Positions 12,633 through 55,437 of a stretch of DNA of 64,000 nucleotides are shown piece after piece. Positions within the stretch are counted from its first letter, which is position 1. Every line of letters begins with the position of its first letter. The notes beneath the pieces are model-generated. The model made no database searches and had not been told where the DNA came from. It saw nothing but the letters and a program-made list of their open reading frames with translations. Source of the stretch: Diplonema papillatum (Eukaryota; Euglenozoa; Diplonemea; Diplonemida; Diplonemidae); NCBI GenBank assembly GCA_030068145.1, contig JAPJBO010000036.1:372001-436000 (forward strand). Reading direction: 5' to 3'. Both the position numbers and the translations under genes were made by a program.

Positions 12633-15600
12633 TTAAGACTTGACAGCCCCTTCGCAGCTCTCCGTCACATCGGGTACTTGGTCGACGGCGGTCGGTTCCG
12701 TAGGGCCGTCCCCGCTTGTAGCTTGCTGCTGCTGCTGTTGCTGTCGATGGAGGCTGTCCATTGATGTGAGCAGAGAGAACGGCTGCACTGCAGCCTGGGG
12801 CGCCGCTTCTGTTTCCTCGGGAGTGTCCAGCAGCATGCCGCCGGGCGATCCCCGTGGAGAGTCCACCTTTTGCTGCTTGCTCGGGACACCGTCCTCGTCG
12901 TCGTCCGCGACCCTCGGGCTGTCTCTGACCCGCTTACCCCTCCGGCCCCCCCTCGTCGGGCGCCTGAAGTAGTGGACGAATACCGGGAACCCAGCCAGGT
13001 GCTTAGCGATGTACTTCTCGATCGCGACCCAGTTGCTGTGGTGCCCGCCGAAGAACGGCAGGTGGACCGCCGGCAGCAGGCGCGCGGCGGCCAGCTTCCT
13101 GCACGCGGCCCCGATCTTCGCGAGCGCCGCCTCCAGCAGCGGGAAGTCGACCTTCCCCGCCGCCGACGCGCGCATGACCGTGGCGAGCAGAACCGCGAGG
13201 GACGGGTACAGCGGAAGCAGGTGCACGTCGCCCAGGCGGAGGTCCTGGGCCTTTTTCGCGGCCTCGTAGTGGTCGCCGACGGCGTCGGACAGCTGGTCGA
13301 GGGCCGAAAAGGTGCCGCCGGCGCCCCAGACGCCGCTGTTGTCGACGGGTTGGAACACCAGGTTCACCACGTTGGGCGCGGCCGCCGCCGCGCTGTCCTC
13401 GTCGTCCCCGTTGCAGAGGGAGTACAGGATCTCCGTCGCAGCAGCGCACGACTCTGGCTTCGTGACGTCGCCTTCTACGTGGAACGGTTTGTCACATCGA
13501 CCTTCGTCCCAGACCAGCGTCTCTTCTTCGTCTTGTTCGGCATTCCCAGTCTCCCCTCGCGCTTGCTCGCGCACGCGTTGCATGTACCTCTGCAGTTGCG
13601 TGATCAATTTGTCGACCTCGTCGCGGTACCCCGAGACTGGCTCCACCTGCTTCGTCACGTACCCGGCCGCTTCCCACCGCTTCTTCAACCGGGCACGGCG
13701 GGCGTCTTCCCTTTCGGACGGTGCCACCTCCGGCTTGCACGGCGCATCGTCGGCTCCCGGCTGCGGCGCGGCGCCGCGGCGGACAGGCACCTGCAGCGGG
13801 ATCGCGGCCGCAAGCGCCCGGAGGGCGGCCTCGCCTCTCTTCAACACGTCGTCCTTCGTGTAGTCGACGCCTTCGTAGGTCATGTGCCGCCGGGCCGGCT
13901 TCGGGGCGCCGGGCGGCCCCGCTGTAGTCGGGGGCGACGGTGAGCGGCGGGGGTCTGCGGCAGCGGGCTCCGGTGCACCTTCCACGTCGTATTGGACGAC
14001 ACGCGCCTTCTTCAGCAGGTCGCTCATCGACTCCTCCTCGTTGAGCAGCGCCCGGAACTCCGGGTCCAGGTACGTCTCTATCGGCGTCTCGGCGGCCCCG
14101 GCTTTCTCCAGGGCCACGTCGGCTACCGAGTCGAGGAGGCACACGTCCGGGTCTGTGATCTCCTGCACCGGGGCTCGGTTGGGGCGGTCTGGTTGCGGGA
14201 AGGTCATGGCTGCGGCCGCCTTTACGAGCTCGAGAAGTTCGACGGAGCTGGGGTTGTGCTTTTTTCCGGCGGCCGGGGCGTCGTCGATGACCGGCGACGT
14301 GTCGAGCACCGCTTTGATCAGCGCCGTCTTCTTGATCCCGCGGGAGAGGATGATGTCTTCGATCGTGCCTTTCGACAGCAGCCGGTACACTGTCACCGGC
14401 TTGGTCTGCCCCATGCGGTGGGCGCGGTCCTGCGCCTGCAAGTCCATCGTCGGGTTCCAATCATGGTCGAAGAAAACAACAGTGTCCGCCGTCGTGAGGT
14501 TGAGCCCAAGCCCCCCTGCCCTCGTCGACAGGAGGAACACAAACGAGTCGGCGGACGTCGTGAACGAAGCCAGCGCTTCCCTCCGGTCGGCAGCGCGCAG
14601 GCTGCCGTCCAGACGCTCGTAGGCGTGTCCCCGGTGGATCATGTAGTCCTGCAAAATGTCGAGCACGCTGGTAAACTGCGAAAACACGAGCACTCTGTGG
14701 CCGGTGTCCTTCAGGTGAGCTAACAGCTTGTCGAGGACGAAGAGCTTCCCTGAGTTGAGGACGACGTGTTCGCCGATTTCGTAGGGTTCTCGTTCGATGC
14801 TCGGGAAGAGGTACGGGTGCAAGCAGCACTTCCGAAGCTGCATGACGACGTTGGAGACGGACCCGGCAGCGCCCTTTGCAGCGAGGAGCAGCCCCGCCGT
14901 CTTGCGCAGGAAGCTGCGGTACAGCAGCTTCTGCACCGGCGCGAGCGGGCACGAGAGGACGACTTCTGTCTTCGTCGGCAGCCGCAGCGCGGCCTCGACC
15001 TTCGTGCGCCGGAGCTGGACGTACCGCAGGATTTCCCGCAGGGCGCTGACCGCGGGGGCCCGGGCCTTTTGGTCGCTGCGAGACGCGCCGGCGAACCATG
15101 TCGAGCAGAAGGACTCGCAGTCCTGAAAAAGGGCCGGATTTGCGACATTAAGCAGCGACCAGAGGTCGCGGACGGTGTTCTGCAGCGGCGTGCCGGTGAG
15201 CAGCAGGCGCCGGCGGACGTGCAGGAGCCCGCACCGCCGCTTCGGCTCGTTGAACGCGGCCGCGACGGCCGGGTTTTTGAGCCGGTGCGCCTCGTCGACC
15301 ACAATCAGCGGGCTGTCGAACGCCGTCAAGAAGTAGTCGTCCAGCTTCAGCAGCTCCGGTGTCGTGACGACGCAGTGGATCTTGGGTATGTGCAAGACAC
15401 CGGACGACGGCACTTTTTTCCTCCGAAGGTGATCCGTGACGGAGTCACGGGTTGCCAGCCTTTCTTCCTTGTCCCCGACGTACTTCAACACCCGTACACT
15501 CGGTGCGAACTTTTCGAACTCGCTCGCCCAGTTGTCCACCGTCGACAGGGGGCATACCACGAGGACCGGCGGCTTCCCTTCGGCCAACTCGTCGGTCTCG

Positions 15601-16115
15601 TTGACCAGCCACGCCACCAACGCGATGGTCTGCAGCGTTTTCCCGACGCCCATTTCGTCGCCGAGTATCCCGCCCAGCCCGTTGCGGTACAGGCGCTGGA
15701 ACCACGCGAGGCCGACTAGCTGGTGAGGCTTCGGGGTCCCGCGGATGTAAGGGACGGACGCGGCGGCAGCGGGGGGTGTGTCGATGGACGGGCAGCCGAA
15801 CCGCTTCTTCACGGCGTGCAGCAGCGAGGCGGCGGAGGTGACCGGCTCGCCGCTGCCGCCCGGGAAGCGCAGGGCCAGCTCCTGCGCGATCTTGGCTTGC
15901 TCCCGCTGCGCTTTGGCGCGGCTCTGCTTTTCGGACATGTAGACATCGTCGCGCTTCTTCCGCGTGCGCGCGGATCTGTTGGGGTTGAAGTACACCGGTC
16001 CGCGGCTTCGAGGCTGTGCGTGGCTGTCCGACGAAGAGTCGTCGTCCGCAGTCTTCTCAGAATCGACGTCTGCTTCTTCGTCGTCGCTGCTTTCACTTTG
16101 CTGCACCGCTTTCAT
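12633..16115 (-). CDS. CHD1L: ALC1/CHD1L-like SNF2 remodeller with macro domain
   Basis: 1160 residues. SNF2 ATPase: GDEMGVGKT (Walker A, 152-160), VVDEAHRLKN (DEAH 274-277), LTGTPLQN (306-313), STRAGGLGLNL (530-540) and QDRAHRMGQ (562-570). An acidic/basic linker follows. Residues 883-1052 match the ALC1 macro domain: VDNSGVWGAGGTFSALD aligns with the VDDSGHWGRGGLF loop of ALC1, and HLPFFGGHHSNW aligns with its HLPRIG...NW region, ending in HYFRR. In animals ALC1 slides nucleosomes once its macro domain binds poly(ADP-ribose) at DNA breaks; the same role is inferred. The tail has a basic KRVRDSP patch and a Gln run (GCTG repeats, near 12715-12745). The first 80 residues are acidic. Two truncated copies of this 5' end lie just upstream (16116-16800). 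The start Met is shared with those copies, which supports it. Confidence 0.92.
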   Translation of the reverse strand: MKAVQQSESSDDEEADVDSEKTADDDSSSDSHAQPRSRGPVYFNPNRSARTRKKRDDVYMSEKQSRAKAQREQAKIAQELALRFPGGSGEPVTSAASLLHAVKKRFGCPSIDTPPAAAASVPYIRGTPKPHQLVGLAWFQRLYRNGLGGILGDEMGVGKTLQTIALVAWLVNETDELAEGKPPVLVVCPLSTVDNWASEFEKFAPSVRVLKYVGDKEERLATRDSVTDHLRRKKVPSSGVLHIPKIHCVVTTPELLKLDDYFLTAFDSPLIVVDEAHRLKNPAVAAAFNEPKRRCGLLHVRRRLLLTGTPLQNTVRDLWSLLNVANPALFQDCESFCSTWFAGASRSDQKARAPAVSALREILRYVQLRRTKVEAALRLPTKTEVVLSCPLAPVQKLLYRSFLRKTAGLLLAAKGAAGSVSNVVMQLRKCCLHPYLFPSIEREPYEIGEHVVLNSGKLFVLDKLLAHLKDTGHRVLVFSQFTSVLDILQDYMIHRGHAYERLDGSLRAADRREALASFTTSADSFVFLLSTRAGGLGLNLTTADTVVFFDHDWNPTMDLQAQDRAHRMGQTKPVTVYRLLSKGTIEDIILSRGIKKTALIKAVLDTSPVIDDAPAAGKKHNPSSVELLELVKAAAAMTFPQPDRPNRAPVQEITDPDVCLLDSVADVALEKAGAAETPIETYLDPEFRALLNEEESMSDLLKKARVVQYDVEGAPEPAAADPRRSPSPPTTAGPPGAPKPARRHMTYEGVDYTKDDVLKRGEAALRALAAAIPLQVPVRRGAAPQPGADDAPCKPEVAPSEREDARRARLKKRWEAAGYVTKQVEPVSGYRDEVDKLITQLQRYMQRVREQARGETGNAEQDEEETLVWDEGRCDKPFHVEGDVTKPESCAAATEILYSLCNGDDEDSAAAAAPNVVNLVFQPVDNSGVWGAGGTFSALDQLSDAVGDHYEAAKKAQDLRLGDVHLLPLYPSLAVLLATVMRASAAGKVDFPLLEAALAKIGAACRKLAAARLLPAVHLPFFGGHHSNWVAIEKYIAKHLAGFPVFVHYFRRPTRGGRRGKRVRDSPRVADDDEDGVPSKQQKVDSPRGSPGGMLLDTPEETEAAPQAAVQPFSLLTSMDSLHRQQQQQQQATSGDGPTEPTAVDQVPDVTESCEGAVKS

Positions 16116-16800
16116 GTCGCCCTCTTGCTTTTCTTGTAATGCAACCTGGGTTTGCTTTTGTTTGTGCTATTCGATGAACCCTGGTCTTGGGATGTGTTGA
16201 CCATACAACGAACCTTCTTGAGTTCTTGACAGCTTGCAGACGCGTTTGTCTGTGCCAGCTCCTGCACGATCCGGGCTTGCTCCCGCTGCGCTTTGGCGCG
16301 GCTCTGCTTTTCGGAGGTGTAGACATCGTCCCGCGTGGCTGTCCGACAAAGAGTCGTCATCCGCAGTCTTCTCAGACTCGACGTCTGCTTCTTCGTCGTC
16401 GTTGCTTTCACTTTGCTGCACCGCTTTCATGTCGCCCTCTTGCTTTTCGTGTCATGCAACCTGGGTTTGCTTTTGTTTGCGCTATTCCGATGAACCCTGA
16501 ATTGACCATACAATGAACCTTCTTGAGTCTTGACAGCTTGCAGACGCGTTTGTCTGTGCCAGCTCCTGCACGATCCGGGCTTGCTCCCGCTGCGCTTTGG
16601 CGCGGCTCTGCTTTTCGGAGGTGTAGACATCGTCGCGCTTCTTCCGCGTGCACGCGGATCGGTTGGGGTTGAAGTGTCTTCTCAGAATCGACGTCTGCTT
16701 CTTCGTCGTCGGTGCTTTCACTTTGCTGCACCGCTTTCATGTCGCCCCCTCGCTTTTTTAATAGTGCAACCCCTGGATTTGTTATCGTTTCCGCTTTTGG
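16116..16800 (-). pseudogene. Two tandem copies of the ALC1 5' end
   Basis: Copy 1 (about 16217-16500) and copy 2 (about 16530-16790) repeat the ALC1 leader, start codon and the codons for MKAVQQSES, DDEEADVDSEKT and KQSRAKAQREQA. They then break off after QELA into a shared tail containing CAAACGCGTCTGCAAGCTGT. The two units are spaced about 305 bp. Each lacks part of the acidic segment: copy 1 loses the RSARTRKK part and copy 2 loses SSDSHAQPRSRG. Neither can encode a remodeller. Both are head-to-tail with the gene. They could act as decoy promoters or leader exons, or be plain slippage products. Confidence 0.85.
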
Positions 16801-18479
16801 GTCTTCTCGTCTAGCGAGGGCGGCGGAAATGAATGTTTCAGCTGATGATTCAGGCTCCACACACTACGCTACTGTTCATCAGTCTAACCCCTTGTTGTTT
16901 ACGCTTCTCTTCACCCAGTGAGTCCGTTGACAACCAACGGCGCATTTCGGACGGAGAAGGAAAGGTTGGTGAAGGCCATATACACGTCTTACCAGGGATA
17001 ATGCTGGCTCGAACGTTGAGGCAATCCCACAAACTCTCATGCATCTTGCTAGCTGATAAGCATCAGGCAATCTTACAAGAAACAAGCGAGAACAGTTGAG
17101 TCGCAACTCTTAACAAAACAGATAGAAAAAAGGGGGGGATATTATTCGCTTTTTCCACACGAAAGGGGGTCGGCTAACTCAGATTCGCTCCCGCATTCGT
17201 GAGAAGCACACGCTCAAGAGGTCTAGTCAAGTATTCTGCAGTACTTTCAAGAGACAAAAGAATCAACCCATGAGGCTCCGGGGGGACCGTCCGCATCCAG
17301 TTGTCCTTCCGGGTGCAGAAATGAACGCGAACCTCGGACTAAGATGCATTGGAACCTGCGACACGTGTGTACAAGACGTTTTTCCGACCCCCGAGGACGT
17401 GTCTCATAAACGGAGAACACGCGCTCCCAACGTGCACCGGACAGCACCTGCTTTGTATTTCGGGGTCTTGTTGCGAGTGGGGGAGATCACCGGCGTGTTG
17501 ATGAGTACCGCAGTATGCCAGCCTTCTCACTTTCGGCGCCTTTTCGACGTGGAGCAACCCTGTGGCGGTTGCGAATCGTTGCCGAAAGCTGGTGACAACG
17601 CCGTTGATGCTGCGGACGGGGGGTTGAGCATGCACACCTTCTAGTGGTGCTTGCATACCACGAAGCAACACACCCTGCTGCAAGTACGCATAGCATGTAG
17701 TAGTGCTACGCATGTAGCTGTATCCCCAGCAGTAAGAAGAATTGCTCATCTCGAACATTCTCCTCCTCGCGCTTTGTGCGGCGATTGGCGATGGGTGAGC
17801 GATTCGCTGTCCAGACCTGGGCTACCAGCCGAAGTGACCAAAGCGGCCTTTTGCTGCGATTTTCGCCCAGTGGCATGAACGAAAAATGGTGAAAGGTGCC
17901 GGGTTCAACAAAAGCTCGCGAACTGGGAAAAGAAGGTCGCGTACACACGTACAACGCAGAGGTACCTGGGGGGAAAATGACGATTAAGGAGATCTAACAA
18001 CAAACAAAGAAGGATCAGCAACCAAAGGTTTTACACAAAGAGAAAGTGAGTACGGAGCGGGGTGACGTTGTATACGTGCCGGCGTGCACTTAGCGCCGTG
18101 GAGGTGAGAAATTCGTGAAAATTGTTTGTACTTGTACCTGCCCTTCCCCTACCCAAGTACTTATACAGGTGGATACGGAAGGTACGCACGCGGCTTCTTG
18201 ACTTGTATGGTCCCCCCGCTGCAAGAAAAGGAAAGCTACGCGGTGTAGAAGAGCCTGCGCTGTTTGTTGGTTGAGCCAGAGAGCAAGATCGTAGCCACTC
18301 CTGTGAACACTGGTCGCCTGTCTTGTCTTTTCAGTGTTACGTTCTACGGCTTCTCTGGTTGACGCCACGGTATTGGCTGAAGTCCACTCCTACCATGCTG
18401 TTCGCTAGATTTGGAGCAACCTGGGCACGGTTCGAAGACGTCCAAGACGACGGTTGGATCTTGGTGGCGGCGGCGTTTC
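16801..18479. other. Intergenic region, nothing recognised
   Basis: Open frames on both strands here (for example 17270-17758) show no conserved motif and do not share the codon bias of the real genes. No repeat ends were recognised. Confidence 0.5.
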
Positions 18480-19106
18480 CGTCGGCGGCTAGCGCTCGCA
18501 GTGCTGGGGACGACGATAAGCCAGACATGAGCGTGGGGATCGTGGTCGCAGTTGAGACAGTGGACACTGTTTTTTAAGCAGCTTCGAAGCAGCAGCATCG
18601 TGGACGCGATTCGAAGAAGCTCAAGACGACGACGAGTCAGAAACTGGCATGGGGATGGTGGTCGCCGTCGACACAGTGGACGCTGTTCTCGAGAGCATCT
18701 TCGGAGGAGCAGCAGACTCGCAGTTCCGCTCGGGAGAAAGCGACTGGCGGGTCCTGCAGCCGCGGAAGGTGGCCTGGATGCGCGTGGCCGCCTGCGCCTG
18801 CTCCTTTTCCTCCTTCGCCTTGTGCCGCGCTTGCTTCCCGCGAAACGTCGCTTGGATCTTCGTCGCCGCCTGGCCCTCCTCCGCCTTCTTCCTCTGCCGG
18901 ATCGGGGAAACCGAGGCCCTCGCCTGCTTTCCCCGGAATACCGCTTGGATCTTCGTGGCGGCGGCCTAGCGCTCGCAGTGCTGGGGACGACGATAAGTCA
19001 GACATGGGCGTGGGGATCGTGGTCGCAGTTGAGACAGTGGACACTGTTTTTTAAGCAGCTTCGAGGCAGCAGCATCGTGGACGCGATTCGAAGAAGTGTG
19101 AAAACG
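18480..19106 (-). pseudogene. Tandem copies of the IQ-protein 3' end
   Basis: Three head-to-tail pieces. The middle one (18620-18965) is nearly identical to 19262-19690. It encodes the last IQ motifs and the terminus TVSTATTIPTPMSDS, with a 9-bp deletion in the TAEKAKEE region and one fewer IQ repeat. On either side (18480-18616 and 18961-19098) are two closely matching, more diverged versions that keep TVSTATTIPT and a downstream segment shared by both. The high identity of the middle copy suggests a recent duplication or gene conversion. Confidence 0.9.
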
Positions 19107-19261
19107 GGTTTTTGCCTAGAGGCTTTTCGTGCTACTTTGCAAATGCTTTGAGCTATCTTCGTGTCTGTGCTTTCAGTCGTCTTCTTAACCATGGTTAAGT
19201 GCGCAAATGGTGTCAGCCGAAGCTGGTAAAGCTTCGGCGCCGCCCACGTTATGTATGAAGC

Positions 19262-22138
19262 TCAAGACGACGACGAGTCAGAAACTGGCGTGGGGATGGT
19301 GGTCGCCGTCGACACAGTGGACGCTGTTCTCGAGAGCATCTTCGGAGGAGCAGCAGACTCGCGGTTCCGCTCGGGAGAAAGCGACTGGCGGGTCCTGCGG
19401 CCGCGGAAGGTGGCCTGGATGCGCGTGGCCGCCTGCGCCTGCTCCTTTTCCTCCTTCGCCTTCTCGGCCGTGTGCCGCGCTTGCTTCCCGCGAAACGTCG
19501 CTTGGATCTTCGTCGCCGCCTGGTCCTCCTCCGCCTTCTTCCTCTGCCGGATCGGGGAAACCGAGGTCCTCGCCTGCTTTCCCCGGAATACCGCTTGGAT
19601 CTTCGTCGCCGCCTTGTCCTCCTCCGCCTTCTTCCTCTGCCGGATCGGGGAAACCGAGGTCCTCGCCTGCTTTCCCCGGAATACCGCTTGAATCTTCGTC
19701 GCCGCTTCGGCCTCCTCCCGCAGCTGCTGCCGCAGCGGCGAGACGGACTGCCGGGCTTTCTTCCCGCGGAACGACGCTTGGATCTTGGTGGCGGCGGCGT
19801 TCTCGTCGACGGCGGCCTCACGCCCGCGCTGCTGGGGCCGGGCGGCGCGGGGCTTTTCGGCCGACGCGTCCGACTGCTTGCGGGGCCGCGCCGCCGGAGC
19901 CGGAGGCGGCGCGGCGGGCCGCTGCTTCTGGAACGAGGCGGATGTCGACTTCATGAACGAGGTCCGCACCGGCGGCGCTGCGCCGGCATGCGCCGCCGCC
20001 ACCGTCGACGTGGAGCCGGCCGGGCGCTTGCTCGGGGCCGGGATGCCTGGTTTTTTGCTCGGCGGCCGGAACTTGTCGCGGGAGCCCATCGGCGCCGTGC
20101 GGATGCGCTTCGGCGCGGAAACAGTCCCCGGCGGCTTCATCGGCGTGATCGGGTCCGAGTCCTCGGAGCCCGGCCCGTACACCGGCCGCGGGCGCAGGGG
20201 CTGCAAGTTCTCGAACAACCGGTGCGTCGGGCCGCGGTGCGTGAACCAGTCAGGCTCGCGCACCACCGGCTCGTCGTCGTCGTCGCCCCAGCAGTCCTGC
20301 TCCTCCTCCCTGCCCCCTCCGGCTGTTCCCCTGTGCTGCACGGGCTCGAGCGGGAACGTCCTCGCGGTGCTTCTCGCGTCGGCGAACTCCTCTACTTCCA
20401 GACCTTCCGTGTACGCCCTGGGGTGGTCGTGCTGGGGTCGAATCCGTTCCGGGCTGATGTGTGGGGACCTGTTTTTCTCGCCGTCGCTGCTCCACAGCGG
20501 GGAGCCCGACTGGACGAGCGGGATGGACGCCGTGTCCGCGTGCCGGTCGAAACACTCTTCCGCCGGCGGCGGCGCCGCCCGCGGGCTGGCCAGCAGCCCG
20601 CGCGCGCCGTATATCGCACCGGGCGTGAGCCGCGGCGACACCACCTCCTCCTCGTAGCACTCCACGAACGACTCCTCGACCTCCTTCCCCTCCGCACGCG
20701 AGCGCGGGCACCCCGGCCGTTGCGCGAAGTCCCCTCCGCTATACCCCCCCAGGTACCCCCCCCCCGCCCCCAGGCCGCTGCGGGGCCAACGGGTGGTCGG
20801 CGAAGGCGCCGTGGGCAGCGGGCGTGGCTCGTCGTCGCCGGGCGGCCGGCTTCGGCGCCGCGGCGGGCTTTGCCGGCGGTCCGTGCAGCCGGCGGGTTGG
20901 AGGAGGGTCGGGCTTGAGTGGGGGATCGGCGGCGATTGCCGGGCGTGGTGCGACGCGGTCGACAGCGAGATCGACCGGCTCCGGAGCTCGTGCGAGAAGT
21001 AGTCGGTGTGCATGGGGTCGGACTCGAGGTGGCAGACGCCGGCCTCGTAGAAGCGCGGGCAGGGGTGGATACAGTTGTCGAGGTGCACGCGATCCTCCGT
21101 CCGCGGGCACTGCATGTGATGCTCACAGTGCGGCTTGCCGCTCGGGTGCAGCGGCAGCCTCGGAGACGAGCTGATCGACCGCGACGGGAACGACAGCGAC
21201 GCCGTCGCCTGCGAAGCACCCGACGAGAACGGAGGAGCAAAATCGCACACGCTCCCCCCCCGGGAGCTACCGGCCGGCGGGGGAGACGTCACGAACGCGG
21301 GCTTCACTCGCCGCGTTTCGCGGTACGAACCCGATTCGTCGTGTCTAGACCACGTGGGGCCGTGGCTTGCTTTGGATGGCGGCCCCCACTGTTCCCTGGC
21401 ACGGTCGCGAGCCGTGGTCAACTCGCGCACGTTCGCATCGAACGAGGCGTTGATGTGCAAGAGGCCGGGCTCGACGACCGCTCGGTCCGTGTGGTACCGC
21501 GCGCTGCCCATGCTATACCCCCCCGGCACCCCGCTGTATGGTGCGTTCGGATTCCGGCTGGTGGTGTGCGCCGGGCTTATCGGCCCGCCCGCTGTGATCG
21601 AGGCGTCCCGGTCATTCATCCGGGGACGCGGCGGTGACGTCCCACGAGGCGTCACGGGACCCTTGTGGATGAACTTCGAGTGCGTCGGCGACTCCGGCCG
21701 GCGCGTCTCGCCCGTGCGGGTCAGCTGGCAGAGGACGTATCGCGGGGTTTCGGTGCTTGAAAAGACCTGCAGGTTGAAGCCGTCGCCGGAGAACTGCTGC
21801 TTTTTGATCTTCTGGTTCTCGGTCGGCCTCTGCAAGGGCTCCACGGTCAGGGAGCGTATCTTCGTGTCTGTGGTCACGTAGACGTAGTCAGTTGTGCCCA
21901 GGTTCGGGCTGTGGAGGACGGGGTCGGGGTGCATGCCGCCGAGTGTGACCGATTTAACCTGGAACGCGGCCAGGAAGGACCGCAGCATTTCGGACGATTC
22001 GCCAGTGAGCTCGCACTCGTTGCCCGCCGTGACGCAGGGGAGCGCCATCACCTGGTCCCGCGTCAGCAGGTGGAAGCTGCGGATCCTAGCGAGCAGCTCT
22101 TCGCTGTCATGCCGCCGGGCATTCTCCCACGTTGTCAT
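19262..22138 (-). CDS. IQ-repeat protein with tandem C/H fingers
   Basis: 958 residues, mostly disordered and rich in Pro, Ser and Arg. At 338-383 there are two consecutive metal-site patterns: C338-x5-C344-x7-H352-x5-H358 and C360-x8-C369-x7-H377-x5-H383. The first differs by one residue from the PBZ finger (C-x5-C-x6-H-x5-H) that binds poly(ADP-ribose), so a PBZ relative is possible but unproven. The C-terminus (from 778) has five IQ motifs (AATKIQAxFRGKxAR), each followed by an SVSPxRQ-like linker, which predicts calmodulin or centrin binding. An N-terminal globular region (1-145) is not recognised. The coding-strand leader contains a 15-16 nt A run. Truncated copies of the 3' end lie downstream at 18480-19106. 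Confidence 0.8.
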   Translation of the reverse strand: MTTWENARRHDSEELLARIRSFHLLTRDQVMALPCVTAGNECELTGESSEMLRSFLAAFQVKSVTLGGMHPDPVLHSPNLGTTDYVYVTTDTKIRSLTVEPLQRPTENQKIKKQQFSGDGFNLQVFSSTETPRYVLCQLTRTGETRRPESPTHSKFIHKGPVTPRGTSPPRPRMNDRDASITAGGPISPAHTTSRNPNAPYSGVPGGYSMGSARYHTDRAVVEPGLLHINASFDANVRELTTARDRAREQWGPPSKASHGPTWSRHDESGSYRETRRVKPAFVTSPPPAGSSRGGSVCDFAPPFSSGASQATASLSFPSRSISSSPRLPLHPSGKPHCEHHMQCPRTEDRVHLDNCIHPCPRFYEAGVCHLESDPMHTDYFSHELRSRSISLSTASHHARQSPPIPHSSPTLLQPAGCTDRRQSPPRRRSRPPGDDEPRPLPTAPSPTTRWPRSGLGAGGGYLGGYSGGDFAQRPGCPRSRAEGKEVEESFVECYEEEVVSPRLTPGAIYGARGLLASPRAAPPPAEECFDRHADTASIPLVQSGSPLWSSDGEKNRSPHISPERIRPQHDHPRAYTEGLEVEEFADARSTARTFPLEPVQHRGTAGGGREEEQDCWGDDDDEPVVREPDWFTHRGPTHRLFENLQPLRPRPVYGPGSEDSDPITPMKPPGTVSAPKRIRTAPMGSRDKFRPPSKKPGIPAPSKRPAGSTSTVAAAHAGAAPPVRTSFMKSTSASFQKQRPAAPPPAPAARPRKQSDASAEKPRAARPQQRGREAAVDENAAATKIQASFRGKKARQSVSPLRQQLREEAEAATKIQAVFRGKQARTSVSPIRQRKKAEEDKAATKIQAVFRGKQARTSVSPIRQRKKAEEDQAATKIQATFRGKQARHTAEKAKEEKEQAQAATRIQATFRGRRTRQSLSPERNRESAAPPKMLSRTASTVSTATTIPTPVSDSSSS

Positions 22139-22690
22139 GCCTCCCCCCCCAGACCGTTGGCCACGCGTCTTTTGCCGTGGCTATTTTTTTTTTTTTTTTG
22201 CTTTGTACTCCTGTCTGGTGTTTGCTGTTTTGTACACGTTGCGCGCTGCGCGCTTCTCCGCTTCCGAGTGGTGAAGCACGCGGAGTTTCGTGCCACCAAC
22301 GGCTTTCAGCTGAACAAGGTGCGCGAGATACGAAATCCGGACGGGCTAAAGGCAGTGGCTACGATGACGACGATGCAGCTATCTTCGACAGCTGGTGCCA
22401 AAACTGTACGGCAAGCCCAAAAGCAGTGTCGTAAAACAGCCGGACGTTCCGCAGCCATGGAAGCGACATCCTTCTTCGTTTTGGGCATTTTCTTCACCCC
22501 ATCTTTGTAGTGGATTCCGGTCTTGCACCGGGAAACTCAATCAGCGGACAGACAGTACAGTGTCCCTTACTAGGTTCGTCCAAGAGACGACCTCAAACTG
22601 ATCGTCCCCGATATATTCCTGTTCGTGTTTAAGATGGATTGGCATTCTCGCCCGTTATCCATCTTGATCAAGGGGTTTGGCTATCCATCT
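22139..22690. other. Leader and spacer upstream of the IQ gene
   Basis: Apart from the poly-A/poly-T tract at 22184-22200, I see no feature. It ends at the left terminus of the 22691-23753 transposon. Confidence 0.5.
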
Positions 22691-25119: not shown

Positions 25120-26068
25120 GGTGACGTGAGGATCACCAGTACGCTTTTTTGGGCCCTTCCAGGCCCACGACGAGGTTTTAGACCAGCTCTGGACGAAGTC
25201 GATCCACGGCGTGTCGTCGTCCTTCCCCGAGCTGCGCGGCCTGCGCGCCGCGTCGCGCGACCGGCTCCGCGGCTTGGGTTGGGCCGCCGGTCGTCGGCCG
25301 CCAGCGTCGGCGCGGGCTAAGGCCACTGATTTGCCTCGATCGAGAGTCATCTTGCACAGTGGGAACGAAGGATGCGTAGAAGGTACACACAACCACTGCT
25401 GAGGACCTCCTGCAAAGGGAGGTAATTGCCGAAGACAGCCGCTGTCCTACCTTACGCTGTAGATACGTGCAACGAGCAGATGTTCACACAACCGCTGCTG
25501 AGGACCTCGTGATGGATCCCAGTCAACCCAAAAGAGAGATGGCCAGATTGCGTACGAAGGTGACGTGAGGAACACATCACCACATCACCAGTACGCTTTC
25601 TTGGAGTCGCTGCGGGGTTGCGTGGTGTCGAGCCCGCCGTTCCAGGCCCACGACGAGGTGTTCGACCAGCTCTGGACGGAAGTCGATCCACGGCGTGTCG
25701 TCGTCCTTCCCCGGGCTGCGCGGCCTGCATGCCGCGTCGCGCGACCGGCTCCGCGGCTTGGGTTGGGCCGCCGGTCGTCGGCCGCCGGCGTCGGCGCGGG
25801 CTAAGGCCACTGATTTGCCTCGATCGAGAGTCATCTTGCACAGTGGGAACGAAGGATGCGTGGAAGGTACACACAACCACTGCTGAGGACCTCCTGCAAA
25901 GGGAGGTAATTGCCGAAGACAGCCGCTGTCCTACCTTACGCTGTAGATACGTGCAACGAGCAGATGTTCACACAACCGCTGCTGAGGACCTCGTGATGGA
26001 TCTCAGTCAACCCAAAAGAGAGGTGGCCAGATTGCGTACGAAGGTGACGTGAGGAACACATCACCACG
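25120..26068 (-). pseudogene. Two tandem copies of the 3' end of the 26069 gene
   Basis: Units of about 470 bp head-to-tail with the gene. Each carries the codons for KPRSRSRDAA and KDDDTPWIDF plus about 200 bp of non-coding DNA. Copy 2 (about 25560-25835) keeps the terminus QPRSDSKKAYW but has a 1-bp insertion (CTGGACGGAAGTCG against CTGGACGAAGTCG). Copy 1 (about 25140-25345) has lost part of the terminus and reads on. In both, the coding part is preceded by an intron-like GTGGCCTTAG, so each could serve as an alternative terminal exon. Confidence 0.88.
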
Positions 26069-27685: not shown

Positions 27686-28099
27686 CGGAACCCAGGAGCG
27701 CCGTGCTCCGAAGAGCCGTGCACCGAATCCTGATTATTTTTCTTCTTTTTTTCCCGGCGGCTTTTTTTCCTTTTGCCCCTGCAGGTGGGTGTGTGCTGGT
27801 TGTCAGGAATCGGAGGAAAGCTGTCGGCAATAGGCAACAAAGACACACGCACAAGCACACGTACTGCCACTACCGCAGATACGATACGCACACTAATATA
27901 CGATACCTTAAAGGAACCTTTTTGACAATGGTCACCAGGAGACTATAAAACCCCCGGATCTCTCAGTGAACTTGCACTCTAAAATAAGCAAAAAACTATT
28001 TGTTCGTGCAATTTAACCTGCAAGAGTTCTGGTTAAACCGCTGCCAACGTTCTTTTTACTGTCTCCAAGGAAGCAGAAACTACAAGCTGACCTCGCAGT
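27686..28099. other. Leader and spacer, nothing else seen
   Basis: Contains the purine-rich leader of the 26069 gene (coding strand) and unremarkable DNA. CACTCTAAAATAAG near 27972 resembles a motif at the edges of other repeats here. Confidence 0.4.
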
Positions 28100-28770
28100 T
28101 CGCGCATGTCGTTCGATGCCACTACGTCAGCATAGCGAGCACCGGAGTCCAAGCGACGAAGAGGCGAGGGACGGCCGGCGGTTCCGGGGAATGGTCGGCC
28201 ACGTCGGTCGTCGAATAGAACTCCACCAGCGCGGACATGACGCCGTAGTGCAGCGGCTGCAGGGTGCGCAGGGCCGACTCGACGCCTTCGAAGTCGCCCA
28301 ACCGGGCGTACCCAGCCAGCAGCAGGCAACGCGTACTCTAACGAGTACTCTACAGTACTCGTAAACAGGCACGCCCTCTGACCTCGTGGTTTCGCGGAGG
28401 GGGTGCCGTCATGTCTTTCAACGACACTACGTCAGCAGAGCGAGCTCCGGAGTCCAAACGACGAAGAGGCGAGGGACGGCCAGCGGTTCCGGGGAAAGGT
28501 CGGCCACGTCGGTCGTCGAATAGAACTCCACCAGCGCGGACATAATGCCGTAGTGCAGCGGCTGCAGGGTGCACGCGCCGAGCCTCCGCAGGGCCGACTC
28601 GACGCCTTCGAAGTCGCCCAACCGGGCGTACCCAGCCTGGCAAAGCGTCGGTTAACGAGTATTCTACAGGCACGCTGTCCTCTGACCTCGTGGTTTCGCG
28701 GAGGAGGAGCCATCATGTCTTTCGACGACACTACGTCAGCAGAGCGAGCTCCGGAGTCCAAACGACGAAA
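28100..28770 (-). pseudogene. Orphan array of a PPR-like terminal exon
   Basis: Three head-to-tail pieces on the minus strand. The fullest (about 28400-28645) encodes AGYARLGDFEGVESALRRLG, then TLQPLHYGIMSALVEFYSTT and a stop after VVWTPELALLT, like a pentatricopeptide repeat at a protein's end. It is preceded by a good acceptor (CGACGCTTTGCCAG). The second (28120-28325) lacks eight residues in the middle and the acceptor AG. The third (about 28720-28765) keeps only the last codons. No parent gene is visible next to them. Confidence 0.75.
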
Positions 28771-30075
<1,305 letters not shown>

Positions 30076-30187: not shown

Positions 30188-30232
30188 TAGCGATTTCCCG
30201 CAGCAGCTCCGAGTATTTGGAAAGCGTCTGCT
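30188..30232 (-). pseudogene. Small copy of the nucleotidase 3' end
   Basis: About 43 bp match 30516-30558 with two mismatches (the codons around TLTKYSELLREIA of the nucleotidase). It lies about 330 bp downstream of its source, in the same orientation. Confidence 0.8.
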
Positions 30233-31550: not shown

Positions 31551-31768
31551 GATGCCAAGGTTTGCCCTTTTACTTTCTGTGTTATTTTCTTCCTCCGTGG
31601 CGATATTCGCTCAGTGTCGGCTGCCTGTGACGGCTTCAGTTTGATCGGGGCTCACATGGTATTAGATTGTTGCTGCGGGTTTCTCCCGTCGTGAATCCAG
31701 GGTTGGGTCCAAAAACGGTTCAGAAAAGGTCCAGAAAGGGCCCCTTTCGCACGCAGAAGGGGGCGGTG
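31551..31768. other. Leader of the nucleotidase gene
   Basis: The coding strand is purine-rich just before the ATG. Nothing else recognised. Confidence 0.4.
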
Positions 31769-34620: not shown

Positions 34621-34623
34621 CCA

Positions 34624-44410: not shown

Positions 44411-44462
44411 GAGCGTGGTCGTACTTTCGTGAAGGGAGGCACCACGTTTAAAACGGGTCCGC

Positions 44463-44494: not shown

Positions 44495-44500
<6 letters not shown>

Positions 44501-46270: not shown

Positions 46271-47190
46271 CCCCTCTCGCCTCCTTCGAAATGAGCACAG
46301 TCCCTCGAGTATTCAATCACGGTCGAGAAAGGTTTGCGCCTACTGTGATGAGGTAGTTGATCATGCCCCACGAGGCCTTATACATAACACCACGAGGATG
46401 CAGCCCTGCTTAGGTATGCACTCAGCCATCAGGCCATTGGCTGCTGAGCACCTCCCGACCGGTCGATTTGCCACTTTTGTGGCCCTATATTCGCCGAGCG
46501 GTGCTGTCAGCACTTGTTCCGCGTCGCATCAAGTACATGATGCTGGCGGTCGGGAGATCGGCGACCGCAACTCAATGAAGGTGCGGTCAACAGTGTCGCC
46601 ACATGAAGGCCCCCCCTTGACACCTTGACTTGGCTTGAAACGGAGAGAAAATAATTTACATAGGTTTGGTTTGGGAAACAAGACTTGCCGAAAGCGCGAG
46701 CAGCGGGTCGATGAAAACCTCGAAAGAGGGCATCGCAGGCTGCATTTGCAAGGGTGGGGGAGAAGAAGCGTTTTGCGCCATAGGATAATGCAACACTGCA
46801 ATCGCCAGACTGTTGGGCACAACGTGCGGGTAGTAGCTGTCATATCGAACACTGAGCGAAGTCGCACGCTCGGTGTCACTCAATGAGCTTGCTTGAGCAA
46901 CAACCTTCCTAGCCGCGGTCAGTAAATTGTTCACGACAAAAGGACTAGCTTGCTGAAAAAGTGAAAAAGGTGCAAAAAGCTCGGAGGCGCCGCTCGGTGC
47001 CGATTTCGAAGGAGCACAGAGGAAGAAAACAACACAACTCCAAAATGGGCCATTTCTCTAAAGCCGTTGCTTGTTGGACGCATGTACTCCGGCCCCGTGT
47101 TTCTTTTTGTGGGGGTGCAGCAACTAAAAAAGACAGCAAGCCACAATGTGAGTATGGAACGCGGTGTTTCGACTTCCGCTGAGCGTTCAT
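46271..47190. other. Spacer, nothing recognised
   Basis: A CGGTGTTTCGACTTCCGCTG stretch at 47162-47181 resembles 47750-47770 at the 3' end of the 721-residue gene, so the minisatellite is bracketed by similar sequence. Confidence 0.45.
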
Positions 47191-47714
47191 GTAGCTACAG
47201 CAAGTCCATCGCCACGTGACGAAGAACCGCAACCGAACCTCGTAGCTACAGCAAGTCCATCGCCACGTGACGAAGAACCGCAACCGAACCTCGTAGCTAC
47301 AGCAAGTCCATCGCCACGTGACGAAGAACCGCAACCGAACCTCGTAGCTACAGCAAGTCCATCGCCACGTGACGAAGAACCGCAACCGAACCTCGTAGCT
47401 ACAGCAAGTCCATCGCCACGTGACGAAGAACCGCAACCGAACCTCGTAGCTACAGCAAGTCCATCGCCACGTGACGAAGAACCGCAACCGAACCTCGTAG
47501 CTACAGCAAGTCCATCGCCACGTGACGAAGAACCGCAACCGAACCTCGTAGCTACAGCAAGTCCATCGCCACGTGACGAAGAACCGCAACCGAACCTCGT
47601 AGCTACACAGCAAGTCCATCGCCACGTGACGAAGAACCGCAACCGAACCTTGTAGCTACACAGCAAGTCCATCGCCACGTGACGAAGAACCGCAACCGAA
47701 CCTCGTAGCTACAG
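47191..47714 (+). repeat. 51-bp minisatellite, about ten copies
   Basis: Unit GTAGCTACAGCAAGTCCATC, then GCCACGTGACGAAGAACCGC and AACCGAACCTC. Copies are nearly identical; the last two have a 2-bp insertion (TACACAG). Because 51 is a multiple of three, both strands stay open (a 17-residue repeat), but the frames have no start context or other coding sign. The array overlaps the stop codon of the adjoining gene by a few bases. Confidence 0.95.
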
Positions 47715-49874
47715 CGAGTCAGTCGGCACACGGTGCAAGCTGGGAACCAGATGCTTCGACTTCCGCTTTTTCTTGGTATCCTCGGGGAGCAGCAGCCGCC
47801 GGAGCAAATGCATTTCGCGGCGATTGAGCAAGCCACCGCCGCATAGGTCCCTCGACCCGAAGGTATCGGCGACCAACGGGTCTAGCGACGAAGGCGGAAG
47901 CGCGAGCTCGGCCACGCTTTGCGCCGCACAGGGGCCGGGCGGGTGGTGCTGTAAAGTGGTCTGCTGGCAGGCGGCCGCGAGGTGAAGCCTTTGGCGGATG
48001 GATACGGACGTCGAGCTTGACGGAGACGCCAGGGCGCTGGACTTCAAAGCGAGCGTTCCGGCAACGGCGGTCGCCGGGGCCGCGGCGCGCTGGCTGGTGG
48101 TGGGCCGCATGCTCATGTGCAGCGCGACCCTGCGGATGATCCCGTCTTCCAACTCGAACTTCGCCGGCTGCGGCTTGGGGAGGGCCACGGTGGGCACGAC
48201 GACGCGGATGAGGGGACCGGTGGCCACCTTCGCCAGAACCACCAAACTGGCTGCCACGGCCGCCCGAGTCAGCGCCGCCTGCAGGTCCCGCCGCGCCACC
48301 GTCGCATGCGCCGCAGCCTCCGGCTGCGCCACCACAGGTGGTACAGCCCCCGGGACGGTTGGCAGCTCGAGCACCCGCCGGCCCATCGGCTTCAGTTGCC
48401 GCGGCGCCCCGCGCGGCGCCGCGGACGCGGCGCCCGCCGCCTTTTCCGCGGGGCTCCGCCCCGCCAGCAGCGGCACGCGGCGGAGGAACCGGGGATGCAG
48501 CACGGCAAGCCACTTGGCCAGCGACTTCCCCCTGGTCGGTTCCCCCGGGTGGAGTGCCCTGGTGGTGGTCCGCGAAGAGGACTGAGGGTTGCTGGCTTCG
48601 CGGGCGGCGGCTGGGTGAGATGGGGTCTGGGTGCCTATTGAGCAGGCCCCGGGGCCGACTGCAAGCCCTGCTCGCCCCGCGTGCGGGCGGCGAGTGGCCG
48701 CCGGCTGCGGCCGGTGTATGGTTTCCGCGAGGAAGGCTTCGAGCTCCGTTCGTTGCGCTGCGCGTGCAGTTCGGAACAGCGCGCGGATCTCGGCGGCGCG
48801 GCGGCGCTTGCGCCGCGGGGCCGCGAGCGAGCCGAGCGAAAAGTGCGCCTCGAGCTGCAACTCCGGGTACTTCGTCGTGTGGTGCCGCAGCAGGTTCTCG
48901 TGGTGCGTCGCCGTTCCGAGGAGCAGCGGCTTGGCCTCGGCGGGGGCTGGCGACGGGGACGAGCACTTCTCCCCCAGATCCCTTGGTTTCACCAAGCAGC
49001 CGCCCTCCGTCCGTGCGCCCTGCGGGGGTTCGGGGGCTGAAGAGTTCGCCGCCGCAGCGGAAGACGAAGGGCCGGCCTGGGAAAGTGCCGTGCATTCTTC
49101 GTACAATGCGTGGGCCTGGTAAAGTGCCGTGCATTCTTGGTACGATGAAAGTGCCGTGAATTCCTGGTACGACGCAAGGCGGTGGGGTTCCGTGAGCGGA
49201 AACGGGTGCGAAGCCGTCCTCTGGAGCGCGGCCCCTGCGGCCGCGGCATTGCCCTCGGTGCTGCCGATGCGAGGCAGCGCTGCTTGCGGGGTGGCCGGGT
49301 TTGATTCGTCGCAGGCGTATTGGCCGTCTTCTTCTGCCCCGGTGCCTGCCGCAGTACACATCCGATACGAGCTGCTACGCAGGATATCACCAAAGGTAGG
49401 CAGGGATGACGTTCTGAGGTTTTCGGTGACGGGGATTCCATCGCAGCTAGCTTCTTCGTCGTCTTCAGAAAATGGTTCGGCAGTTGCCGGGTCGAAGGGC
49501 GGGAGCAACGAGGATTGCCGGGCGGTGTGCGTGTCGTCTCCGTCTCCTTTGCCGTGTGGGGGAGGCGTGCTTTTTTCGGTTGACTGCCTTGGCTGCGGGC
49601 CGCCGTGGGGCGGGTTTTTGAGCCATGCCAACGCGTACAGCGGCAGCGGGCGTGCCTGCGCGGGCTGCACCTCGATCTGCAGGGTGCGGCCCTGCGTCTT
49701 CAGCCGCTTCGTCTCCCCGCGCGCCTTCGCCGCGATCACGCAGCGGCCGGTCTCGAGCACGAGCCGCTTGTGCTCCTCCCTCCGGCGCCCTTCGGCCGCC
49801 TCCTGCAGCTCCAACGCCGACAGCTTCTGCCCGCAACCCGGCCGCGCATTGCCGGTCGTCAGGCGGATGTGCAT
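47709..49874 (-). CDS. Unknown 721-residue low-complexity protein
   Basis: An N-terminal helical stretch (residues 16-85: LELQEAAEGRRREEHKRLVL, then TLQIEVQPAQ) may be folded. The rest is Ala/Pro/Ser/Arg-rich. A short internal repeat at 235-267 reads SYQEFTALSSYQECTALYQ and YEECTALSQ. A hydrophobic stretch (AAVAASLVVLAKVATGPLI) could be one membrane span. No family recognised. Long uninterrupted frame, high GC and conserved strand support a real gene; the start could be in a missing upstream exon. The 3' end abuts the minisatellite. Confidence 0.55.
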   Translation of the reverse strand: MHIRLTTGNARPGCGQKLSALELQEAAEGRRREEHKRLVLETGRCVIAAKARGETKRLKTQGRTLQIEVQPAQARPLPLYALAWLKNPPHGGPQPRQSTEKSTPPPHGKGDGDDTHTARQSSLLPPFDPATAEPFSEDDEEASCDGIPVTENLRTSSLPTFGDILRSSSYRMCTAAGTGAEEDGQYACDESNPATPQAALPRIGSTEGNAAAAGAALQRTASHPFPLTEPHRLASYQEFTALSSYQECTALYQAHALYEECTALSQAGPSSSAAAANSSAPEPPQGARTEGGCLVKPRDLGEKCSSPSPAPAEAKPLLLGTATHHENLLRHHTTKYPELQLEAHFSLGSLAAPRRKRRRAAEIRALFRTARAAQRTELEAFLAETIHRPQPAATRRPHAGRAGLAVGPGACSIGTQTPSHPAAAREASNPQSSSRTTTRALHPGEPTRGKSLAKWLAVLHPRFLRRVPLLAGRSPAEKAAGAASAAPRGAPRQLKPMGRRVLELPTVPGAVPPVVAQPEAAAHATVARRDLQAALTRAAVAASLVVLAKVATGPLIRVVVPTVALPKPQPAKFELEDGIIRRVALHMSMRPTTSQRAAAPATAVAGTLALKSSALASPSSSTSVSIRQRLHLAAACQQTTLQHHPPGPCAAQSVAELALPPSSLDPLVADTFGSRDLCGGGLLNRREMHLLRRLLLPEDTKKKRKSKHLVPSLHRVPTDSL

Positions 49875-52514: not shown

Positions 52515-52612
52515 AGCTTTCGAGGCTGTCACCTGTTCACCACCGGAATGAAGGCATGGTCGAGTACGCTCCTACTGGGACACCGGGAGAGAGTCATAGT
52601 AGGAGGTAAGGT
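52515..52612 (-). pseudogene. Truncated copy of the PARN-fusion 3' end
   Basis: Matches 52655-52760 through GCTGTCACCTGTTCACC, a TCGAGTACGCTCC segment and GGAGAGAGTC. It covers the last approximately 85 coding bases plus about 20 bp past the stop, head-to-tail and about 145 bp downstream of the source. Confidence 0.85.
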
Positions 52613-52674
52613 TGTTTCTACTCTGCCCAAGGAGACAGTCTGGAAGACTCCTGAACTTCCAGACTGTCACCTGT

Positions 52675-55437
52675 TCACCGCCGAGAAGGAGGTATTATCG
52701 AGTACGCTCCATGTCCGTCGGGCGTGATGTTGGGGCACCCGGAGAGAGTCGTAGTAGGCGGCAAGCTGGCGACTACTTCGCCGAAGTCTCCAAGACTCGT
52801 GAACCGAACGTCGTCCAAGCTGCCGCCGAGGTGGGTGCAGTTGAGGTTCTGCGGAAAGTCGGCCCGGGTCCCGTACATCATTTGGTACGGCACTGCCGCC
52901 GGCACGACCACGACCAAGTTCTTGCAGTCCTGCGCCAGCAGCGCGTGCAGAGACCCCGAAAAGTAGACGGTGAGGTTCTTGCACTCGCGGATCTCGAGGT
53001 ACTTGACGGAGAACGGGTCGCTGAGGTTCTTGCAGTGCAGCACGATGTTGAGGGGGCCGTTGTACTGGCTGATTTCCCACGTCTCGTCCTCCCGGCGGAG
53101 CTGCAGCCGAGGAGTCGGCCGCCCGTGCACGGGGCCGACGGAGTGCCACTTTTGCTTCGCGGCCGCGGGACTGGCGTCCGGTTCGGCGGTCAGCTGGAGC
53201 CCGCCTTTCCGTTCTTTCGACGTGGTGGCCTTCCTCTTGGAGAGCAGCTGCGCGAGCTTGCTTTCGACTTCGTTGCTCGGAGAACCCGACGGCTTCCATT
53301 TCCCGCTCATTTTCGCCGACGTGCGGAGGGCGCCGTGTGGTGTCGTGGGGGGGCTGCTGCCGCTGGGTTCGTCGTTGGGGGGCGCGGCCGGCGGTTGCTT
53401 GGTGGCGGGTCCCACGGCGTCCATGCGGACGGACTCCGTGTACTGCGCCCGTTCGGACGCGAGCAGCTTGCGCAGCCGGTCGGCCTCGGCTTGGTACCCG
53501 CGCATGCCCTTCTCGAGCATCTCGCTCTGCCGGCGCAGCGCGGCCTCGCGCTCCTCCTGCCGCCGGCGCGCCGCGTCCTGCCTCTTTCGCATCGCCCTCT
53601 TCGCCGCCTTCACGCGGAGTGTGCACCTCCTGGTCTTCCGCCGCTGCTTCCACAGATTCTCCCCAGAAGCCGCTGAATGCACGTAGAGCTTCGAGTACAG
53701 CGACGCAAACCCTGGTTTGGATGACACGGCATGCGTTAGCGTGTGCGCCGGCACGGGCTCCGGTGTGGGTGGCGTTGCGTATTGGTCCGGCGCAAAGGGA
53801 ACTGGAGAGGTTGAAAAAGAATTCGGGGACCTCCGTCTTTCGGGCGGTTCGGGTGCGGAGGCCGCCAAACAACTAGTTTGGTTGTCGAATAGCCCACACC
53901 CCCGTCCTCCTCCTGGTCCACTGGTTGCGCTGTCCCGCTCTGGGTTCGATGTCCGATTCCCACAGCGCAGCTGAGACCTCGGCGCCGCGGCTGCGCCTGC
54001 GGACGACGGCGCGGGGGTTGCAGGAGGCTGAGTTCGCCCGCCTGCAGCCGGCCGGAGCCGAGCCTCCTCGGCCGCCGGCAAGCCGCCTGCACCGGCCCGG
54101 CGGAGCGCGAGCTTCAAGGAGTCCAGCGACGACAACGCATTCGGGCGCTTCGCTCGCCCGGCCGGTCCCGCCGGAATGTGCAGAACAATGTCGTCTCCTC
54201 CTCCTCCTTCCCCAGCCGCCCGCCCGCCCTCCTTTTTTGCGGCCTCCTCTTCGGGTTGGGAAGGCTGATCGCTGGGTTGCTGCACGGTGGCGGGGGAAGC
54301 AATCGTCTCGACGGGGCGGTGTGGGGTGTCGTCGATGATGGGGGGTACGGACCACCCGCGGGCGGTGCAGGTGCGCTGCGCGGAGAGAGCGTTGGCGGAG
54401 TCGGAGAACGTGAGGAGGGCCCGCTTCCGGTAGTCGAGCCAGCAGACTTCCGTCGGGTTGATGTCGGGGAAATACGACGGCAGATCCACCGCTTCACTTG
54501 CCGCCTCGACGAGGACAGACCGGCTGTAGTACTCGCGCGTGGGGAGTACGACAGGAGACGCGCACGGTTCGAACGCGAACGGGACCCCGTGTATGAACAA
54601 CCGATCCGTCCACCTGTCCAACGGGAACTCCGGGAAACCCTTTCCCCCCGGGTCCCCGCAGACGTACTGGTAGCAAACACCGGTCATAAACGCGTCGACG
54701 CCCGCGTTGTGGTGCCGGGTGCCGGCCGGCAGGAAGCTGGCACCGGCCGACGCGCATGCATCGGCGAACGTCTGCGCCAGGCTCTTCGCGCTGCCGGTGC
54801 TCCGAAGGGCTTCGCGGATGTCTGTAATCCCGGGGAACCTGTCGTGGACGCGGGCCAGAAACTGCTCCACGGACGCGGGAAGCCCGTCTCGGTCAAGCCA
54901 CTGCAGGCACAGCAAGATGTCCAGGACGCACTGGAACCCAACGATCTTCACTTTGCTCCCTACGAGCGTCTCCCAGAAGCGGCGCGCGTCACTAGCTGAC
55001 ACGCCGTGGGTCAGCCAAGCCGAGAAATCGTAACTGTGGGCTGCGAGCATTTTGAGGGATGCTGGCGTGCAGCGAAATGACGCGTCGCGCCCTGGCTGCG
55101 GAAAGAGGGGGTTCGCCGCGATGTCCGGCGAGACGTCGACCGAGAACACGCGGTGCGTGAACTCCCGTGCGACCGGGTCCCACCGGAAGACGGCGACGCC
55201 GACCTGCGTCACGAGGAACTCGGCTGCGAACCGGCGGTAGTCGTCGAACACCTCCCTAGGCCCCGCGTATCGGGTCCAGCCGCGGGACGGGATGCCGGTG
55301 AACTCCGTGTCGACGGCCGCGAACGAGGCTCCGACGAGACTCTCCGCGAAGTCATCGTGCGCCGAGCCCGCGTTGTCGCAGTTCACCCGAAGGATGTCAA
55401 GCTGCTGCACAAGTCGGGCGGCGCATCGGCGGAGCAT
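52675..55437 (-). CDS. PARN-like deadenylase fused to a CAP/CARP-like domain
   Basis: 920 residues. The N-terminal DEDDh nuclease of the CAF1/PARN group has AAVDTEFTGI (D43, E45), IVGFQCVLDILLCLQWL (D173) and HHNAGVDAFMTG (H243, D248). A segment at about 300-350 (VCWLDYRKRALLTFSD) resembles the small RRM of PARN, so PARN fits better than TOE1; the R3H insert is not evident. The middle is disordered with a basic coiled coil (RRRQEEREAALRRQSEMLEK). Residues 774-900 contain TWEISQYNGPLNIVLHCKNL, then YLEIRECKNLTVYFSGSL and LLAQDCKNLVVVV: regular strands with Cys-Lys-Asn turns, as in the beta-helix of adenylyl cyclase-associated protein and cofactor C. That joins mRNA decay to an actin/tubulin-cofactor-like module in one frame. 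No internal splice is needed. Confidence 0.8.
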   Translation of the reverse strand: MLRRCAARLVQQLDILRVNCDNAGSAHDDFAESLVGASFAAVDTEFTGIPSRGWTRYAGPREVFDDYRRFAAEFLVTQVGVAVFRWDPVAREFTHRVFSVDVSPDIAANPLFPQPGRDASFRCTPASLKMLAAHSYDFSAWLTHGVSASDARRFWETLVGSKVKIVGFQCVLDILLCLQWLDRDGLPASVEQFLARVHDRFPGITDIREALRSTGSAKSLAQTFADACASAGASFLPAGTRHHNAGVDAFMTGVCYQYVCGDPGGKGFPEFPLDRWTDRLFIHGVPFAFEPCASPVVLPTREYYSRSVLVEAASEAVDLPSYFPDINPTEVCWLDYRKRALLTFSDSANALSAQRTCTARGWSVPPIIDDTPHRPVETIASPATVQQPSDQPSQPEEEAAKKEGGRAAGEGGGGDDIVLHIPAGPAGRAKRPNALSSLDSLKLALRRAGAGGLPAAEEARLRPAAGGRTQPPATPAPSSAGAAAAPRSQLRCGNRTSNPERDSATSGPGGGRGCGLFDNQTSCLAASAPEPPERRRSPNSFSTSPVPFAPDQYATPPTPEPVPAHTLTHAVSSKPGFASLYSKLYVHSAASGENLWKQRRKTRRCTLRVKAAKRAMRKRQDAARRRQEEREAALRRQSEMLEKGMRGYQAEADRLRKLLASERAQYTESVRMDAVGPATKQPPAAPPNDEPSGSSPPTTPHGALRTSAKMSGKWKPSGSPSNEVESKLAQLLSKRKATTSKERKGGLQLTAEPDASPAAAKQKWHSVGPVHGRPTPRLQLRREDETWEISQYNGPLNIVLHCKNLSDPFSVKYLEIRECKNLTVYFSGSLHALLAQDCKNLVVVVPAAVPYQMMYGTRADFPQNLNCTHLGGSLDDVRFTSLGDFGEVVASLPPTTTLSGCPNITPDGHGAYSIIPPSRR

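Follow-up and report, generated by a model that had tools for sequence, protein, structure and literature searches.

Truncated copies of gene ends in Diplonema papillatum are probably relics of short local duplications

In a 64-kb stretch of the genome of the marine protist Diplonema papillatum (the window; C36:372001-436000 in an assembly of 271 Mb and 2910 contigs), several genes are accompanied by truncated copies of their own ends. Are such echoes a property of genes, or do they reflect something that happens along the whole genome? An earlier note on the window had listed them at seven loci, and a search by self-BLAST and repeat finding recovered partial copies at all seven, each on the same strand as its gene, as that note had stated. 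ORF genes were called with a codon-usage model rather than taken from the published gene models, and their 5' ends are uncertain where introns exist. The features of the seven loci are as follows.

12633..16166, minus strand: ORF of an ALC1/CHD1L-like SNF2 helicase (Pfam SNF2-rel_dom, 2.5e-62)
15874..16798, minus strand: ALC1 5'-end array, the gene part plus two upstream copies
19262..22180, minus strand: ORF of an IQ-motif protein (Pfam IQ, 5.9e-20)
18447..19261, minus strand: downstream pieces of the 3' end of the IQ gene
26069..27733, minus strand: ORF of 554 aa, no Pfam match
25153..26068, minus strand: downstream tandem copies of the 3' end of ORF 26069
28079..28769, minus strand: PPR-like terminal-exon array, ~2.3 copies, period 305
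30486..31610, minus strand: Inositol_P-family ORF, a nucleotidase in the earlier note (Pfam Inositol_P, 5.2e-26)
30190..30232, minus strand: 43-bp downstream copy from gene 30486 (source 30514-30556, 95.3%)
34624..35532, minus strand: ORF of 302 aa, no Pfam match
33784..34623, minus strand: downstream copies of the 3' end of ORF 34624, period about 280-321
52675..55437, minus strand: CAF1-family ribonuclease ORF, a PARN fusion in the earlier note (Pfam CAF1, 5.7e-36)
52519..52656, minus strand: single diverged downstream copy of the 3' end of gene 52675 (source 52657-52804)

The ALC1 protein has 1160 aa, from a 1177-aa ORF with a putative ATG at 16115, and two of its best relatives carry labels that we read as Hemistasia and Euglena. 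The CDS parts of its array are 88.8-95.3% identical, and each upstream copy carries one private frame-shifting deletion (65 and 59 nt). Segment 19257-19612 of the IQ gene recurs at 18616-18962 with 98% identity over 342 CDS columns, accompanied by weaker downstream pieces at 18986-19074 (81%) and 18447-18512 (85%). At ORF 26069 the array (25153-26280) has a period of 483-484, made up of ~212 coding and 272 non-coding bases, and a further weak match lies at 24871-25034. With the gene part included, the array of ORF 34624 spans 33784-34725. The echo of gene 52675 is weak, at 66.5% identity overall and 77% over CDS columns. Degenerate terminal copies holding both UTR and CDS were thus found beside genes, except for the 43-bp unit at 30190-30232, whose source lies entirely within the CDS, without the stop and without non-coding DNA. 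The claim that the units include a stop or start plus adjoining non-coding sequence therefore fails for this unit and often holds otherwise.

The PPR-like array had been described as lacking a parent. We located the parent ORF on contig C293 (L031:1635-2246), where it adjoins its own array, and a missing parent was accordingly rejected. Beyond the end of this ORF lie three copies, two of them close (period ~304) and one diverged, and the array in the window is a 98.4% copy of L031 2208-2901. The Pfam PPR match of the ORF was below cut-off (E 0.0047).

Gene-end echoes are a real feature of this genome and an already known one; the new part is their quantification. The earlier note knew of no description, but the feature has been published: Valach et al. 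2023 (PMC10161547), in the passages that treat them, report 'repeat-bounded gene structures' in dozens of D. papillatum gene models. There, many cases comprise a 5' region with 5'UTR and CDS, and the 3' kind appears as 'other cases'. Their SufC example has 12-13 upstream copies with PacBio support, and its array is absent from the mature mRNA. We placed the SufC gene at C37:309421-310137 (TIGR01978). A repeat cluster in its flank (L033:526-6038), with shortest periods of 415 and 476, extends into the gene, and we take this array to be the published example, DIPPA_19968.

The survey of echoes covered 304 kb, comprising the window and 24 other 10-kb loci, of which the first 20 were hand-picked on 20 contigs and the last 4 came out of a random list of 80 places. 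Copies within 2.5 kb were regarded as local. The Pfam scan covered 20 of the 24 ORFs in these loci. We counted 27 ORF genes, 10 in the window and 17 in the other loci. Seven of the 24 ORFs are excluded from the latter number: one in L007 and one in L009, which match reverse transcriptase or RNase H, and five others (four in L017, one in L019), some of which are themselves echo copies. Echoes within 2.5 kb were present at 6 of the 10 window genes and 7 of the 17 others, and matched non-gene intervals had a copy within the same distance in 31-35% of draws (31% with draws kept clear of all 24 ORFs plus a 500-bp margin). For the 24 loci the comparison was 7/17 genes against 34% of intervals on any side (P 0.36). 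Within 1 kb it was 7/17 against 21% on any side, or about 12% per side. In this small sample, the control suggested by the earlier note, run against matched non-gene intervals, gave similar rates within 2.5 kb and an excess at genes within 1 kb that was confined to the 3' side.

Echoes were found at the 3' end of five window genes and seven others, and at the 5' end of one gene in each sample. Taking all 27 ORF genes, 12 had a 3' and 2 a 5' echo (one-sided sign P 0.0065), and the 24 loci alone gave 7 versus 1 (P 0.035). In these loci the 3' count (7/17) exceeded the per-side background both within 1 kb (12%, P 0.0024) and within 2.5 kb (18%, P 0.024), binomial values that ignore the dependence of neighbouring genes and come from a small sample with several thresholds tried. 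The 5' side showed no excess within 1 kb (1/17, 24 loci), and an inverted copy of a gene end was seen at none of the 27 genes. When repeat cover of ORF ends was scored instead, 3' ends were covered at 5/10 window ORFs and 6/24 ORFs elsewhere, and 5' ends at 1/10 and 5/22, against 18.8% and 13.1% of non-ORF points (P for 3' 0.026 and 0.084). This test was set aside in favour of the interval test because it misses echoes that fall short of the stop codon.

Local copies also occur well beyond gene ends. With copies up to 2.5 kb apart counted, the 304 kb contain 71 direct clusters, 15 of them in the window and 56 in the other loci, and 9 inverted clusters, of which the window has 1 and the other loci 8. 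Comparing each sequence with its own reversal gave a single match in 304 kb against the 71 direct clusters, and a chance origin was rejected. By the first gene list, transposon ORFs included, 44 of the 71 have no ORF gene within 1 kb. Copies are adjacent in 34 clusters and spaced in 37. Identities range from about 73 to 99% (5th-95th percentile; middle half 77-91%), periods from 84 to 1632 bp, and the duplicated stretches mostly measure about 80-500 bp, sometimes more. Such breadth points to a recurrent process without a fixed unit; recurrence had been proposed from the window, and the echoes at 7/17 ORF genes in the other loci bear it out. The arrays first listed were all gene-linked, but several of the window's 15 direct clusters lie off ORF genes. 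Local repeats of the window outside the seven loci include the following.

31769..32302, no strand assigned: local tandem duplication of two copies with a period of about 257, away from ORF genes
39929-40813 and 59150-59467: examples of local direct clusters away from ORF genes
47190..47729, minus strand: 51-bp minisatellite, about 10 copies

The last 21 bases of ORF 47709-49880 run into this minisatellite, which did not enter the count as an echo. Among CDS bases separated from an ORF end by more than 500 bp, repeats cover 2.1-2.4% (0-1.2% in the window, 5.1-6.7% in the other loci), compared with 13.9% of the DNA outside ORFs. Low cover of CDS interiors is as expected if selection removes duplications within genes. 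In the first annotation of the 24 loci, cover was 20.6% for whole ORFs compared with 13.0% for other DNA, partly because echo copies themselves form ORFs.

The four genes that each have two or more echoes fit for alignment (ALC1, 26069, 34624 and the PPR-like ORF on C293) show the fate of the copies. Echo-private substitutions numbered 11, 9 and 13 at 200, 201 and 200 sites of the three codon positions, and the 10 echo indels include 6 that shift the frame. The even spread over codon positions and the frame shifts revealed no coding constraint on the copies of these four genes, which therefore look like non-coding DNA. Gene-side differences (7, 9 and 11 by codon position) are not divisible between the gene and the echo ancestor. 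Over all gene-echo pairs, with overlapping pairs counted repeatedly, mismatches amounted to 5.1, 4.8 and 8.4% by codon position, and a mild excess at third positions is what a pair with one constrained copy should show. On the same repeated counting, CDS columns differed at 6.1% and non-coding columns at 5.1%.

These data are best explained, and we think probably correctly, by regarding the echoes as relics of a genome-wide process of short, in-place, same-orientation duplication, filtered by selection that spares gene interiors. Short stretches throughout the genome would be duplicated next to themselves in the same orientation, most likely through tandem or partly tandem duplication where DNA breaks or forks stall, and the resulting arrays could then expand and contract by slippage or unequal exchange. 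A duplication within a gene would usually break the gene and be lost; one that covers a gene end would leave an intact gene and a truncated copy free to evolve. Upstream copies would add a second start and a trans-splice acceptor and are probably selected against. Downstream copies would merely lengthen the 3'UTR, which would fit the greater number of 3' than 5' echoes in the sample. The echoes would then decay as non-coding DNA, the behaviour documented for the four genes above.

By analogy, the echoes probably originate in break repair. Local copies are direct rather than inverted (71 versus 9), as such repair would produce. The relevant passages of PMC7407515 describe tandem, partly tandem and ectopic-donor insertions at inaccurately repaired breaks in rice, and those of PMC8355091 describe short tandem duplications that follow fill-in of break ends by Pol alpha-primase/CST in mammalian cells. 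Adjacent copies, spaced copies and one dispersed copy (C293/C36) match the insertion types described for rice. Clean junctions occurred in two young simple duplications only, with 8 and 1 bp of microhomology. Among the roles guessed at by the earlier note, relics of template switching or repair would fit best.

Duplication blind to position does not fully predict the excess on the 3' side. Genes may tolerate a lengthened 3'UTR, copies may stay recognisable for longer when their partner is constrained, or the 3' end may be a genuine hot spot. A constrained partner would slow divergence and could in this way contribute to the excess, although no slowing is visible in the all-pairs comparison. 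If the 3' ends of genes do attract duplication, gene borders within polycistrons would be broken by transcription, poly(A)/trans-splicing or R-loops, and repair would duplicate the border. We hold this possible but rather unlikely, and we are equally doubtful that 3' ends are two- to three-fold hot spots of tandem duplication whose 3'UTRs are continually rebuilt from copies of CDS ends. The counts by side (12 versus 2, and 7 versus 1 in the 24 loci) and the 3' excess over the 12% and 18% backgrounds argue for such hot spots, as do copies at least 90% identical within 2.5 kb (5/17 against 7.6%, P 0.0074). However, the latter give P 0.086 within 1 kb, and raising the identity cut-off to 92% gives, for the 24 loci, P values of 0.20 (1 kb) and 0.074 (2.5 kb). 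When all 24 ORFs are kept, 10 have an echo within 2.5 kb and the sides stand at 9 to 4. The sample is small, several thresholds were applied and ORF 5' ends are uncertain where there are introns; moreover, the genome paper, where it treats these structures, calls the 5' kind 'many' and the 3' kind 'other cases' (PMC10161547).

That the echoes serve as spare exons, 3'UTR modules or poly(A) modules under selection appears very improbable. Their constant orientation and the frequent inclusion of the stop with adjoining non-coding DNA would suit such a role, as would the long 3'UTRs of D. papillatum, for which PMC10161547 gives a median of about 800 bp. Against a coding role, the echo-specific changes (11/9/13) lack codon-position bias and deletions shift the frame (6/10 indels), and on these grounds spare coding exons were rejected; the authors' RNA-seq, as presented with the SufC example, excludes that array from the mature mRNA. 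The spare exons or 3'UTR modules suggested earlier thus find no support. An assembly artefact is the least credible reading of all: the five of 71 clusters with at least 99% identity (L004, L006, L007, L010 and L022) could be mis-joined, but the middle half of identities lies at 77-91%, copies carry private deletions, and PacBio reads span the SufC array according to its authors. With copies this divergent, artefact was rejected as a general cause. Terminal repeats of transposable elements were likewise dropped as a general cause, since the gene echoes do not fit them. One separate pair does fit such repeats: at L007:4201-6366, two identical (100%) 91-bp repeats in direct orientation stand on either side of an ORF whose reverse-transcriptase match is sub-threshold.

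Repeats of other kinds were also noted. Within window positions 39427-42853, inverted arms (39427-39628 and 42596-42794, 90.6%) are built of short palindromic units, and between them lies the 41-bp array at 39929-40813, itself partly inverted; the segment is possibly a DNA transposon or foldback element. A 28S rRNA fragment lies at 33309-33437 (Rfam LSU_rRNA_eukarya), and the genome is reported to hold about 3600 pieces of this kind (PMC10161547). A dispersed ~139-bp repeat has three same-orientation copies in the window (197-335, 24312-24450 and 46119-46252, the second and third 94% and 88% identical to the first) and another at L031:1433-1561. Positions 29714-30021 hold a 308-bp perfect GT microsatellite.

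A 37-base query, which we take to be the diplonemid spliced-leader exon, gave 517 perfect genomic matches and none for its reversed control. In all four matches inspected (L024:1501, L025:1501, L026:1501 and L031:4053) unrelated sequences adjoin the leader at the splice point, and partial leaders were found stacked at 18 places, against 0 for the reversed control. These copies look like retroposed trans-spliced mRNAs, which occur in dinoflagellates. A literature search gave no report of retroposed leader-bearing mRNAs in diplonemids among the 10 papers listed out of 1,398, and the genome paper was covered in part; it reports 110 SL RNA genes (PMC10161547).

A habit of local duplication would explain why some exons in D. 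papillatum are mis-annotated and some UTRs are long, and it makes the genome a natural, high-density archive of short tandem duplication. What most deserves further testing is the 3' excess; if it is confirmed across the genome, break formation would be linked to the processing of mRNA in polycistrons.

The structures of Valach et al. and those described here are alike in being degenerate tandem copies of gene ends (UTR plus part of the CDS) that adjoin the gene upstream or downstream. The text on these structures in PMC10161547 proposes no mechanism; in the present sample, 3' cases outnumber 5' cases and local direct duplications are frequent off genes too. Break-repair duplications, as treated in the corresponding passages of PMC7407515 and PMC8355091, share the direct orientation, the 10-1000 bp size range and the tandem, partly tandem and ectopic types. 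In contrast to them, D. papillatum has multi-copy arrays (13 units in the published example), and the link to repair is one that we infer. Partial gene duplicates, in the sections of the Katju review devoted to them (PMC3449122), are likewise truncated gene copies whose frame is often broken; they are catalogued as gene pairs, whereas the units in D. papillatum are often smaller than an exon and sit at the border of their parent.
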